A DNA stretch of 64,000 nt from Flavobacteriales bacterium. GTDB lineage: Bacteria > Bacteroidota > Bacteroidia > Flavobacteriales_E > Vicingaceae. Position 1 is the stretch's first letter, and every line of letters starts with the position of its first letter. Below the pieces are notes generated by a model. It ran no database searches. It was not told the DNA's origin and was given only the letters and a program-made list of their open reading frames with translations. The stretch is taken from NCBI GenBank assembly GCA_015075325.1, contig JABTUP010000017.1, positions 1 through 64,000 on the forward strand. Reading direction: 5' to 3'. Shown here piece by piece: positions 20,349-32,363 of the stretch. Both the position numbers and the translations under genes were made by a program.

Positions 20349-21155
20349 ATGGATGTAATTAAAATCATAGAACAATACAAGAGTTTAGCACTTGATAATG
20401 TGGTTGATTATACAAGATACAATCAACATACGTTGTCTTTCCATAGCACAGCACTTGAAGGTTCAACACTTACAAAAATTGAGACTCATCTTTTGTTAGA
20501 TGAAGGTGTTACTCCTAAAGGTAAAAAAATTGAAGAATCGTTGATGGTAAAAGACCATTTTGATGCCTTATTGTTTACTCTTAAAATGGCAGATAGAAAG
20601 GAAAAAGTTAGTATTGATTTGATAAAAAGAATTAATGCAGAGGTTTTAAAATCAACAGGTAAAATATATTTTACTGCTTTTGGCGATATAGATTCATCAA
20701 AGGGCGAATTTAGAAAAGGTAATGTTAGGGCAGGAGATAGGTATTTCCCTAATTTTGATAAAGTTCCGAAATTAATGGAAGAATATTGTTTAACACTTTG
20801 TGAGAGGATAAATACCTCTGCAAATGACGTTGTTGAGCAATTAAAAATCTCCTTTGCTGCTCATTTTAATTTGGTTTCTATTCACCCGTTTTATGATGGA
20901 AATGGAAGAACTTCGAGATTAATGATGAACTTTATTCAACAACAATTTAGATTGCCTTTGGCAATTGTTAATAAAGAAGATCGAATTGATTATGTTGAGG
21001 TTTTAGAGAAAAGTAGAAAAACCAATGAAATAAACTATTTTTATGATTTCATGTTTCAACAATACATTAACTTTTTAAAATCAGATATAGAAAAATATAT
21101 CCAACAAACTCAAAATAAAAATAATAAAGGTTCAGGAATGAACTTTCTTTGGTAA
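20349..21155 (+). CDS. Fic family protein with N-terminal inhibitory motif
   Basis: A 268-residue Fic protein. The active motif HPFYDGNGRTSR (179-190) is complete, including the catalytic His and the second Arg, so AMP transfer from ATP to target protein hydroxyls is expected. STALEG at 33-38 fits the (S/T)xxxE(G/N) inhibitory helix of class II Fic proteins, which blocks ATP gamma-phosphate binding until relieved. No separate antitoxin gene is adjacent, consistent with built-in inhibition. Gene ends inside the rmuC leader, leaving 8 bp to the rmuC ATG. The target is unknown. Confidence 0.88.
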   Translation: MDVIKIIEQYKSLALDNVVDYTRYNQHTLSFHSTALEGSTLTKIETHLLLDEGVTPKGKKIEESLMVKDHFDALLFTLKMADRKEKVSIDLIKRINAEVLKSTGKIYFTAFGDIDSSKGEFRKGNVRAGDRYFPNFDKVPKLMEEYCLTLCERINTSANDVVEQLKISFAAHFNLVSIHPFYDGNGRTSRLMMNFIQQQFRLPLAIVNKEDRIDYVEVLEKSRKTNEINYFYDFMFQQYINFLKSDIEKYIQQTQNKNNKGSGMNFLW

Positions 21156-21163
21156 CTAAATTT

Positions 21164-22504
21164 ATGGATATCACATCAATATTACTTCTGCTTCTTGGCT
21201 CAGTGCTTGGTTTTTTTATAGGGTTTTTTGTAAAAAAATCGCAACAAAATGAAGCAACTAACGATGACGAGCTAAAAACATTAGCTACAGAAAACACCAA
21301 ATTAGCAACTCGACTAGAAAATGCTGAACAGGTTTTTAAACAACAAAAAGAAAAAGAAGAAAAGTTGGTTACTCAAAACAACGAGTTGTTAACGCTTTCG
21401 GCTCAGTTGGAAACTCAAAACAGAAACTTAGAAGAAAAATTAACTGAACAAAAAGCCGAAATAGAAAAAATTCAACAACGCTTTACTCTTGAATTTCAAA
21501 ATATTGCCAATAAATTATTAAAAGAAAACTCAAGCGAATTTGCTCAGGCAAACCAAAAACGATTGGACGAAATATTAACTCCTTTAAAAGAAAACATTAA
21601 AGCTTTCGAAAAGAAAGTGGAAGATAAATACGAAACCGAACTGAAAGAACGCACCTCGTTGATGGAGCAAATAAAATCGTTGTCGGATTTAAACCAACAA
21701 ATGAGAACCGATGCTCAAAATTTAACCAAAGCACTAAAAGGCGATACCAAAACACAAGGCAATTGGGGTGAATTTATTTTGGAAAAAATACTCGAAAGCT
21801 CTGGACTTAAAAAAGGCGAACAATACGAAACACAGTTTGCAACAACAAACGATGAAGGAGCAAGAATTTATCCTGATGTGGTGATAAAATTACCCGAAGA
21901 AAAACACATTATTATTGACTCGAAAGTTTCGATTGTGGCATACACCAATTTTATGGAAGCCCAAACAGAAGAACAACAATTGGCTTGTATTAAAGCTCAC
22001 ATAGCTTCTGTTAAGTCGCACATTAATGGATTAAGCGAAAAAAATTACAGTCATGCAAAAGGTATTAATTCGCCCGATTTTGTGTTGATGTTTTTACCTT
22101 CCGAACCTTCGTTTAGCTTTACCTTGCAGTCCGACCCAAACATCTACCACTACGCTTGGGACAGAAAAATTGTGTTGGTTAGTCCAACAACCTTGTTAGC
22201 AACCTTGCGAACCATTTCATCGGTTTGGAAACAAGAAAATCAAACCAAAAACGCCATTGAAATAGCAAAACAAAGTGGAGCTTTGTACGATAAATTTGTT
22301 GGATTTTTAGAAGATTTAAACAAAATTGATAAAGGGTTAAAAAGTTCGCAATCGGCTTACGATGAAGCGGTTAAAAAACTTCAGTTTGGTAGTGGAAACT
22401 TAATAGGTAGAGTAGAAAAATTAAAAGTATTGGGAGCAAAAACTACGAAAAACTTACCCGCCAATTTTACAGAAGACGATGAAAGTCAGGAGGAGGAAAT
22501 GTAG
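21164..22504 (+). CDS. rmuC: RmuC-family DNA recombination protein
   Basis: A 446-residue protein, start at ATG 21164. A single N-terminal membrane segment (ITSILLLLLGSVLGFFIGFFV) is followed by a long coiled coil to about residue 200 (LATRLENAEQVFKQQKEKEEK and onward) and the RmuC nuclease-like domain (GNWGEFILEKILESSGL, YPDVVIKLPEEKHIIIDSKVSI, FLPSEPSF, VLVSPTTLLATLRT). The IIDSK segment matches the PD-(D/E)XK-like core of the family. RmuC limits recombination at short inverted repeats, which is notable given the number of such repeats here. Confidence 0.92.
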   Translation: MDITSILLLLLGSVLGFFIGFFVKKSQQNEATNDDELKTLATENTKLATRLENAEQVFKQQKEKEEKLVTQNNELLTLSAQLETQNRNLEEKLTEQKAEIEKIQQRFTLEFQNIANKLLKENSSEFAQANQKRLDEILTPLKENIKAFEKKVEDKYETELKERTSLMEQIKSLSDLNQQMRTDAQNLTKALKGDTKTQGNWGEFILEKILESSGLKKGEQYETQFATTNDEGARIYPDVVIKLPEEKHIIIDSKVSIVAYTNFMEAQTEEQQLACIKAHIASVKSHINGLSEKNYSHAKGINSPDFVLMFLPSEPSFSFTLQSDPNIYHYAWDRKIVLVSPTTLLATLRTISSVWKQENQTKNAIEIAKQSGALYDKFVGFLEDLNKIDKGLKSSQSAYDEAVKKLQFGSGNLIGRVEKLKVLGAKTTKNLPANFTEDDESQEEEM

Positions 22505-22515
22505 TTTTTAGATTA

Positions 22516-22993
22516 TTAACCACAAAGCACACAAAGTTTATATAACCGACAAGCACAAAGTTCTCAAAGAAAACAATATGACTGAAAACGAATTATCTAA
22601 TAAAATTATTGGCTTAGCAATTGAAGTGCATAATGCTCTTGGTCCAGGTTTGTTAGAGAGTGCTTACAAGGAATGTTTGTACTATAAAATTGGACAATCA
22701 GGACTTTTTGTTGAAAAAGAAAAACCAATGCCTTTAGTTTTTGAAGAAGTAAAATTGGAGTGCGGCTATAGAATCGATTTGCTTGTAAATAATAAATTAG
22801 TAATAGAAATTAAGAGTGTTGAAGCATTAAATGACATTCATCTTGCTCAAACATTAACCTATTTGAAATTAGGTAGTTATAAGCTGGGATTATTAATCAA
22901 TTTCAATGTGGTTCGAGTTAAAGATGGTATAAGAAGAGTGATAAATGGTACTTTGTGATTCTTTGCGATTAACTTTGAGAACTTTGTGGTTAA
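22516..22993. mobile_element. inverted-repeat element carrying a GxxExxY gene
   Basis: TTAACCACAAAG (22516-22527) is the exact reverse complement of CTTTGTGGTTAA (22982-22993). A second match inside the arms is 16 bp: CACAAAGTTCTCAAAG (22554-22569) against 22973-22988. Both arms are made of degenerate CACAAAG-type units. Between them lies only the GxxExxY gene, whose stop codon is inside the right arm. The unit is 478 bp and has no transposase. I read it as a small repeat-bounded element. Confidence 0.7.
22578..22958 (+). CDS. GxxExxY protein, PDDEXK_3-like nuclease fold
   Basis: A 126-residue protein with the family hallmark GLLESAY (24-30; G, E, Y positions conserved). A PD-(D/E)XK core is seen as D66 followed by E77-I-K79, then the HLAQTLTYLKL helix (88-98). 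All predicted catalytic residues are present, so nuclease activity is plausible but not shown for the family. It is the only gene inside the inverted-repeat element; its last codons (ACT TTG TGA) are part of the first right-arm CTTTGTGA unit, so repeat and gene are physically merged. Confidence 0.88.
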   Translation: MTENELSNKIIGLAIEVHNALGPGLLESAYKECLYYKIGQSGLFVEKEKPMPLVFEEVKLECGYRIDLLVNNKLVIEIKSVEALNDIHLAQTLTYLKLGSYKLGLLINFNVVRVKDGIRRVINGTL

Positions 22994-23009
22994 AAATAGA
23001 AAATAATAA

Positions 23010-24299
23010 ATGAAAACAAGGAATAAAGACAAGAGAATAGTGCAACAGTTAGTAGCTTTCTGCACAGTTGTTATTGTTTTTTTAACAGGCTGCTCTTCAA
23101 TCGAAAATGCAACCAACCGCAATGTGGCTGGAATTTATTTGCCAGGCATTAACCTTTTAGAACCTGATTACAAGGTTTTTCATGAAAATGATACCTTAAC
23201 AAAGTTCTATTTTAGAATAAAATCGGAAGATTTATTATACACCAAACGACGCTCCGATACTACTTTCACGGCCAATCTTCATGTTAAGTACGAATTAATG
23301 GACGATTTAGAGCAATTAATTGATAGTGCTACAGTTTACTTTAACGATTTTGGTCAAAACAACGAAAAAAAATACCTCGAAGGAATAGTAAATCTCAAAA
23401 CTAAAACAACCGAAAACTATAATTTATTGATATCGTTTTACGATGCAAACAGAGATAATTACCTAAAAAAGAAAATTTTATTGAATAGAGCAAATGTTCA
23501 TCATGCACAAAATTTTTTGGCAAAAGATACTTTGGGAAACATTATTTATAAAAACTATTTATCGGTTAACGATAAAGTTGTTTTACAACGTAGCACCAAC
23601 AATTATACTAAAGAAGGAAGTTTAAAATATTTCCACGTAAAACATCCTATTGCAAAACCTCCGTTTTCTGAAGCAGAAAAAGATGAAAACATTGTGTTAA
23701 CCCCAGACTCAGCCGTAACCTTAGTTTTTGATAGTTTAAACAACGTAGAATTTACCATAAATGCTCACGGATTATTTTTGTTTCAAACTAGCGATGTGAT
23801 AAAAGAAGGTCCAACATTCTTTTGTTTTCAAAACAATTTCCCTGAAATTAAGGATGTTGAAAACATGATTGAACCCATGCGATATATCACCACTAAAGAG
23901 GAATACACCAATTTAATGGAGGCTGAAAATAAGAAATTAGCTATGGACGAGTTCTGGCTAGAAATTGCTGGTGGAACAGAACGTGCTAGAACCTTAATTA
24001 AAGAATATTTTAATAGAGTAGAAAACGCAAATCATTATTTTACAAGCTATTTGGAAGGTTGGAAAACCGATAGGGGTTTAATTTATTTGATTTATGGACC
24101 ACCAAACGTGGTGTATAAAAACAAAGATTACGAAAATTGGATATACGGTGAAGAAAACAACATCATGTCGATGAACTTTGTTTTTTACAAATCAAAAAAC
24201 TACCTTACCAATAATGATTATGTGCTGAGCCGTTCGGCTATTTACAAAAACACTTGGTACAGAGCGGTTGACACATGGCGAAGTGGAAGAATTTTTTAA
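23010..24299 (+). CDS. GWxTD domain lipoprotein
   Basis: A 429-residue lipoprotein: N-terminal hydrophobic stretch and lipobox LTGC (lipidated Cys near residue 28). The C-terminal 130 residues form a GWxTD domain (YLEGWKTDRGLIYLIYGPPN, then YENWIYGE, ending WYRAVDTWRSGRIF). GWxTD proteins are common in Bacteroidota and thought to act at the outer membrane, but their role is not established. A strong hairpin closes the gene at 24314-24342. The upstream arm of the GxxExxY element ends 16 bp before the start. Confidence 0.82.
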   Translation: MKTRNKDKRIVQQLVAFCTVVIVFLTGCSSIENATNRNVAGIYLPGINLLEPDYKVFHENDTLTKFYFRIKSEDLLYTKRRSDTTFTANLHVKYELMDDLEQLIDSATVYFNDFGQNNEKKYLEGIVNLKTKTTENYNLLISFYDANRDNYLKKKILLNRANVHHAQNFLAKDTLGNIIYKNYLSVNDKVVLQRSTNNYTKEGSLKYFHVKHPIAKPPFSEAEKDENIVLTPDSAVTLVFDSLNNVEFTINAHGLFLFQTSDVIKEGPTFFCFQNNFPEIKDVENMIEPMRYITTKEEYTNLMEAENKKLAMDEFWLEIAGGTERARTLIKEYFNRVENANHYFTSYLEGWKTDRGLIYLIYGPPNVVYKNKDYENWIYGEENNIMSMNFVFYKSKNYLTNNDYVLSRSAIYKNTWYRAVDTWRSGRIF

Positions 24300-31892: not shown

Positions 31893-32363
31893 AGTCTTCA
31901 GTCTACAGTTTTCAGTCTTCAATAATAAAAAGGGTCTATTTATATTTTTCAGGATTATTAATCATGTGGTTTAATAATTTGCCTATTTCAATAGAATGTT
32001 CAATTTTATCGGTATAAGTTTTTTCGTCTATATATTCACATGCAAAAGCAAAATCGAGCCAAACTTGAGTTTCTGAATTTTCCATATCTGAATCAGATAT
32101 CTTTGAAACAAAATGAGCAGGATATTGTCGTTTTCTATATCCTTCAGCTAGATTTGCACAAACAGAACGAGAACATCTTCTAACTTGATCAGTTAAAGAG
32201 TACCTTTCTTCTTTAGGAAAAGATTTTGAAATTTTAAAAATCTCCATCGCCAAAGAAAACGCCTTTTTATAAACTGTTAAATCTTTGAATGTACTCATGT
32301 TTGTTTTTAGTTTTTTTTCTTTTTTTTTTTTTTTTCTGAGAACTGAGAATTGTAGACTGGGAA
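31891..32363. mobile_element. inverted heptamer arms enclosing a four-helix-bundle gene
   Basis: Left arm: AAAGTCT, TCAGTCT, ACAGTTT, TCAGTCT (31891-31918). Right arm: CTGAGAA, CTGAGAA, TTGTAGA, CTGGGAA (32336-32363). The arms are the same heptamer family in opposite orientation. Between them lie only the four-helix-bundle gene and a 25-nt T-rich tract (32311-32335). The total of 473 bp is almost the size of the GxxExxY element. It sits between genes that are usually adjacent. Confidence 0.65.
31936..32298 (-). CDS. four-helix-bundle protein (S23/IVP family)
   Basis: A 120-residue protein of the 23S rRNA intervening-sequence/four-helix-bundle family. Family marks: DLTVYKKAFSLAMEIFKISKSFPKEERYSL at the start, QVRRCSRSVCANLAEGY in helix 2, and SETQVWLDFAFACEYI in helix 3. 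Relatives are encoded in 23S rRNA inserts and as Avd, the accessory protein of diversity-generating retroelements, which binds nucleic acid and reverse transcriptase. No reverse transcriptase or variable repeat lies nearby. It is flanked by inverted heptamer arms, which hints that it may act on repeat DNA or RNA. Confidence 0.9.
   Translation of the reverse strand: MSTFKDLTVYKKAFSLAMEIFKISKSFPKEERYSLTDQVRRCSRSVCANLAEGYRKRQYPAHFVSKISDSDMENSETQVWLDFAFACEYIDEKTYTDKIEHSIEIGKLLNHMINNPEKYK

Follow-up and report, generated by a model that had tools for sequence, protein, structure and literature searches.

Introduction

REPIN-RAYT systems combine a REP-associated tyrosine transposase with its repeats (PMC3116915, PMC3686654). 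They resemble the units we describe here in having one gene flanked by inverted copies of a repeat scattered through intergenic regions, in the hairpins formed by their short doublets, in the tie between a repeat class and its cognate gene, and in the dependence of repeat abundance on that gene. They differ in their enzyme, an HUH/Y1 transposase where the GxxExxY unit has a predicted PD-(D/E)XK (Cas4/RecB-like) protein; in their ends, a single palindrome instead of arrays of a heptad core; and in that the GxxExxY gene is itself multicopy and mobile between genera. Dispersed, gene-dependent hairpin doublets are found here, but no HUH/Y1 gene lies beside the repeats; because the HUH enzyme is absent, the GxxExxY unit is RAYT-REPIN-like by function, not by membership.

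Intervening sequences (IVS) of 23S rRNA with S23p (PF05635; PMC4990558) are likewise about 0.43-0.5 kb long, place a small ORF between inverted repeats and are sporadically distributed, and S23 units in the genome studied here carry the IVS protein family. GxxExxY units, in contrast, are inserted between protein-coding genes (ours between rmuC and a GWxTD gene) and not in 23S helices, and have an unrelated nuclease fold. DDE insertion sequences and MITEs share inverted ends, a single gene and internally deleted arm-only derivatives; GxxExxY units, however, this element included, carry no DDE transposase, and their ends are clade-specific iterated heptads. Finally, Cas4/RecB nucleases (4ic1, 4r5q, lambda exonuclease) resemble the GxxExxY protein in predicted fold and in site layout (helix Glu, D...ExK, QxxxY), so that both the fold and the active-site motifs of this group are seen in the GxxExxY model; the GxxExxY protein is, however, about half their size, Fe-S cysteines were not seen, and it lies outside CRISPR and recombination operons. 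Open-access articles in PMC yielded no description of GxxExxY units as mobile elements, an absence that, given the scope of PMC, is weak evidence.

Results

The window, the whole 64,000-nucleotide stretch of Flavobacteriales DNA that was analyzed, contains these features:

21149..22504, forward strand: rmuC, the upstream host gene, outside the element
22516..22993, forward strand: whole element, 478 bp; homology to elements elsewhere spans 22515-22996
22516..22569, forward strand: left arm, TTAAC followed by CACAAAG units at 22521-22527, 22530-22536 and 22554-22560 and CTCAAAG at 22563-22569
22578..22958, forward strand: GxxExxY gene, 126 aa, predicted Cas4/RecB-like PD-(D/E)XK fold
22951..22993, reverse strand: right arm, the left-arm units inverted at 22951-22957, 22961-22967, 22973-22979 and 22982-22988, followed by GTTAA
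22956..22958, forward strand: TGA stop codon, sharing bases with the innermost unit of the right arm
23010..24299, forward strand: GWxTD-domain gene, the downstream host gene, outside the element
31936..32298, reverse strand: S23/23S_rRNA_IVP four-helix gene (locus L015), the second unit type in the window, with its own, different matched arms

The initial annotation had described a GxxExxY nuclease-fold gene inside a 478-bp inverted-repeat element, and profile matches, a repeat search and arm alignment agree with it. The perfect 12-bp terminal inverted repeats (TTAACCACAAAG at 22516-22527 and CTTTGTGGTTAA at 22982-22993), the further 16-bp inverted match (CACAAAGTTCTCAAAG at 22554-22569 and CTTTGAGAACTTTGTG at 22973-22988) and the stop codon made by the repeat are all present as it had them. 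Both arms are inverted arrays in which a ~7-nt core recurs every ~9-12 nt, and the repeat search returned inverted matches of 36 nt (81%) and 19 nt (95%). Upstream and downstream sequence aligned with a Smith-Waterman score of 18.5, compared with a median of 8.5 both in 214 control ORFs and in mismatched element pairs; the match is not chance. The ends are confirmed independently, because alignment to an element from another family covers 22515-22996 and stops at the arm tips.

The 126-aa product matches TIGR04256 (141 bits, cut-off 35) and PF13366 (PDDEXK_3; 137, cut-off 22) over its full length, and PDDEXK_3 was the sole domain found by profile search in the element's gene. Its GxxExxY motif is G24-E27-Y30, with further active-site residues D67, E77 and K79 and a RecB-type motif at Q91/Y95. 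E77 and K79 had been correctly assigned to a PD-(D/E)XK site, but the catalytic Asp is D67 and not "D66": an alignment of 92 homologues has E27, Y30, D67 and K79 in every sequence and E77 in 98%, though the proteins are ~30% identical. An AlphaFold model (pLDDT 95.9) had its best Foldseek matches in the PDB to Cas4 (4ic1, 4r5q) and lambda/LHK exonuclease, at weak E-values (about 1e-3 to 1e-2, best 1.2e-3); weak Cas4 HMM matches are in line with the fold search, and no solved relatives were found by sequence search. On this model the product is a predicted nuclease, a minimal Cas4/RecB-like member of the PD-(D/E)XK fold. The gene has a dN/dS of 0.01-0.17, with dS saturated in the more diverged pairs, and of 0.08 and 0.11 between paralogous transposed copies; substitution patterns indicate strong purifying selection on the active site and the protein. 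Identity as a known defence protein was rejected, PADLOC giving weak Cas4-like matches alone, and comparison with PHROG gave no clear match to indicate a phage origin.

We then aligned the 260 bp upstream of each gene to the reverse complement of the 260 bp downstream, with a score threshold of 13.5, in a class-wide sample that favors high-scoring members of the GxxExxY family. The initial annotation had asked whether GxxExxY homologues in general have flanking inverted repeats, and they do: matched arms occur at 82% of 92 distinct loci, against 4.3% of mismatched pairs (median score 17.5 versus 9.0, and 8.5 for control ORFs), and ~18% of the genes have no clear arms. Element length has a median of 499 bp (10-90% range 454-624). 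Its CACAAAG unit, on the other hand, holds for one protein clade and gives way elsewhere to CRCAGAT, TACGAAT, CATTAAG, CACATAG, TTGTCTGAATT and others. Among annotated plasmids from other taxa, the same arms are found in Bacteroides, Bernardetia and Sphingomonas (there between fabD and fabG), and were not clearly found in Prevotella, Fusobacteria or Treponema. A Gemmatirosa plasmid (L307) carries a GxxExxY gene between 32-nt perfect inverted CTCTGCG arms of polarity opposite to that of the other elements; perhaps these are two flanking arm-only copies.

With loci ordered by protein similarity, the arm types include TTAACC(A/G)CARAG, TTTCTCGCAGATT, TAGCCACAGATT, TACGAAT, CATTAAG, CACATAG and TTGTCTGAATT. 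Arm similarity correlates with protein similarity (Mantel r 0.33, null sd 0.042, p 0.001), also when only pairs from different genomes are used (r 0.34, null sd 0.043, largest of 999 nulls 0.12), and is lower in same-genome pairs with unrelated proteins than in different-genome pairs with related proteins (p 4e-11). Arm sequence tracks protein clade, not genome. The correlation would also arise if gene and arms were simply inherited together as a single stretch of DNA; it is the dependence of arm-only copies on the gene, described below, that separates recognition from joint inheritance. Homogenization of arms by gene conversion was rejected, arm identity being higher within than between copies for L342 alone and not generally.

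About 25 relatives lack the element between rmuC and GWxTD, and their two genes abut or nearly abut. They overlap or abut in two genomes of the same genus, G003 and G002 (…GAATAATGAG… and …GATTAATGAA…), and in 27 other genomes with both genes they are mostly touching or tens of bases apart, with no GxxExxY match. The empty junctions that the initial annotation proposed to look for thus exist, without element and without repeats, and what is conserved is the rmuC-GWxTD pair, across relatives at the level of genus, family and class, and not an order of rmuC and GxxExxY that lacks repeats. Conversely, the window element aligns to L219 in G043, a genome from another family, at 75.6% over 484 nt (window 22515-22996), with unrelated flanks; within G043, copies are 89.6% identical over 483 bp (L225/L229) and 84.8% identical (L219/L226), again with unrelated flanks. 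Because the element is absent from the junction in relatives and its homologues align tip to tip with unrelated flanks, these alignments indicate a mobile unit that travels with its arms. Empty sites were also seen for other GxxExxY loci, and the gene occurs in 1-20 copies in 78 of 119 genomes; in the window's own genome there are 7-8 loci for GxxExxY and 12 for S23. No consistent target-site duplication was found in within-genome pairs or at empty sites, where flanks are too diverged for base precision; one genome per species was sampled, and empty sites are not readable to the base.

Movement is not rapid everywhere, because some insertions occupy one and the same site in species or families that are related (L177/L178, L187/L261/L217). 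The related units L187 (G051), L261 (G094) and L217 (G041) precede the same enoyl-CoA-hydratase-like gene in two families, a shared position that may reflect old vertical inheritance or repeated insertion. Some units and arm-only copies are enclosed by an outer inverted repeat, TTGTTACTGTTCRGGT in G043 (L219, L226, L230) and TTTGTTACTACTC around L349-L354 (G062), which may be due to nested insertion into palindromes or may be an additional end motif.

Gene-bearing units between co-directional genes are almost always in the sense orientation: 47 sense versus 2 antisense for GxxExxY (p 4e-12), with median gaps of 10 bp from the preceding stop codon and 18 bp from the following start codon, and 20 versus 0 for S23 units, with gaps of 3.5 and 8 bp. 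GIY-YIG units show no such bias (4 sense, 3 antisense; gaps of 104 and 73 bp). Insertion itself seems not to be limited to sense positions, because arm-only copies also lie between convergent genes (4 of the 9 checked, a small sample) and divergent genes (2). Selection on gene-bearing copies to be expressed by read-through is the most likely cause of their sense bias.

Arm-only copies take several forms. At orthologous sites, L302 retains its two arms together with the opening codons of the GxxExxY gene, and L295 and L294 are arm remnants where the genome of a sister species has the whole unit. Dispersed arm-only families occur in G047 (~200 bp), G062 (~105 bp) and G135 (~90-185 bp), and one strand of the arm-only copy L342 forms a perfect stem of 59 bp when folded (z -18). 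At a further locus (L304, G056:C13) about six arm-only copies of ~100 bp, in tandem and with a conserved spacer, come after a complete GxxExxY unit, and the window's own genome has gene-less CACAAAG arm remnants at L008 (G000:C19) and L009 (G000:C29).

We counted the arm motif ACCRCARAGN{1,4}CRCARAG over 119 genomes, with the reversed motif as control, and found 529 occurrences versus about 10. Motifs were present in 55 of 78 gene-positive and 11 of 41 gene-negative genomes, with means per genome of 6.55 with GxxExxY and 0.44 without, and at least five motifs were found in 26 of 78 versus 0 of 41 (Mann-Whitney 1e-7); genomes were treated as independent in these tests, so that significance is somewhat overstated. 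Intact units contribute at most two motifs per copy, and in G047 12 motifs accompany a single GxxExxY gene. Y1_Tnp genes, present in 86 of the 119 genomes, do not account for this: gene-positive genomes without Y1 (n=9, mean 4.0 motifs) do not differ from those with it (p 0.41), Y1-positive genomes without GxxExxY average 0.59 motifs, and motif count differs with GxxExxY both within Y1-positive (p 0.0006) and within Y1-negative genomes (p 0.002). Arm-only copies depend on GxxExxY in the genome, independently of Y1/RAYT. The few motifs in the 11 gene-negative genomes may reflect gene loss or another helper.

The class of repeat-bounded single-gene units proposed in the initial annotation from the two types in the window extends to other cargo. 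Of 27 new S23/four-helix loci, 81% have matched arms, against 0.5% of mismatched pairs. The packaging of the two unit types is alike, as had been claimed, but their repeat logic is not: S23 arms are strict tandem arrays of a 7-nt heptamer, such as GTATTGA, AATTAGG or TTAGGTG, reminiscent of the heptanucleotide repeats long known in cyanobacteria. In the non-rRNA S23/23S_rRNA_IVP genes (L010-L021, L392-L419) arm sequence varies between elements and matches within one. The near-identity in size of the GxxExxY and four-helix elements, within 5 bp, turned out to be non-specific (medians of 499 and 472 bp), and is simply what a ~125-aa gene and its arms add up to. Small GIY-YIG genes have matched long inverted arms in 44% of 27 loci (mismatched 2%); where present among L362-L391, such arms are of TGTCATCCTGAGCG / TCGACAAGCTCGAAGTGAC type.

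One junction, after SufB, was compared across loci L006, L293, L301, L303, L273, L289 and L297. It holds a GxxExxY unit in the window's genome (L006 site, G000:C15), an S23 unit in G099 (L301), a GIY-YIG unit in G094 (L303) and a short palindrome in G001, and is empty in G002, G003 and G134; S23 matches by coordinates are also found there in G051, G056 and G041.

Discussion

We suggest that the GxxExxY unit is probably a single-gene mobile element, whose Cas4-like nuclease would recognize and process the arms of its own clade, with the unit and its arm-only copies being copied to new intergenic sites. The protein would recognize its clade's iterated arms; the nuclease would process them, most likely as a hairpin or cruciform, or as freed ends; and the whole unit, or an internally deleted arm-only copy, would be placed at a new intergenic site. 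Recognition of the arms by the GxxExxY protein is supported because arm type follows clade and arm-only copies depend on the gene; that the nuclease itself catalyzes movement, and the form of the DNA intermediate, we infer. A nuclease is not required for this architecture, because S23 elements share the layout without a nuclease domain.

This last point would also suit a nuclease that is mere cargo (a gene with a selfish, defence or addiction role) while host functions move the unit, the match of arm and protein being due to joint inheritance. Arms and gene do travel together, so that their phylogenies would agree anyway, and the SufBC and other junctions accept different cargo types; gene-less arm-only copies are nevertheless abundant solely where the gene is present, and the active-site residues are invariant across proteins of ~30% identity, and we regard passive carriage as unlikely. 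The near-exclusive sense orientation of gene-bearing copies between operon genes, the identity of the S23 protein with the IVS protein, and the Coxiella IVS, bounded by inverted repeats that are cut by RNase III (PMC4990558), would fit an RNA-level intervening sequence instead, in which the arms pair into a stem within the operon RNA, RNase III cuts that stem, and removal of the element from the mRNA is what allows it to persist. Arm mismatches, however, are not biased to sense-strand G-U wobble (99 G-U-type versus 140 A-C-type), a negative result on which we rejected the RNA-stem reading; moreover, six of the nine arm-only copies checked lie between convergent or divergent genes, the fold of the window element exceeds that of shuffled sequences only slightly in stability (z -1.8), and searches of the window gave no Rfam and no rRNA match, making persistence through transcript processing quite improbable. 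That a RAYT (Y1/HUH) transposase moves the arms in trans, the units being REPINs with a passenger gene, is very unlikely and was rejected as the main driver, for although arm-only copies form REPIN-like hairpins (L342) and Y1_Tnp is widespread, Y1 status does not predict arm motifs (in gene-positive genomes they are equally frequent with and without Y1, and Y1-positive genomes that lack GxxExxY have few), and arm type goes with GxxExxY clade.

Beyond the single-gene mobile element itself, GxxExxY, S23 and perhaps GIY-YIG units may, tentatively, form one superclass with a shared integration route, self-matched iterated ends and interchangeable end-recognition proteins; the short interspersed repeats that are widespread in environmental bacteria (CACAGAG, CGCAAAG and TTAGTGA-type heptads) would then be its debris. 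We hold this broader grouping to be possible and no better than that.

Annotations of very many genomes list GxxExxY and S23/four-helix proteins without giving them a role. GxxExxY would gain one, as the end-recognizing protein of a mobile unit, and abundant intergenic repeats would be explained as its ends. A stand-alone Cas4-like nuclease that moves DNA would, if true, be a new type of enzyme for a bacterial mobile element.
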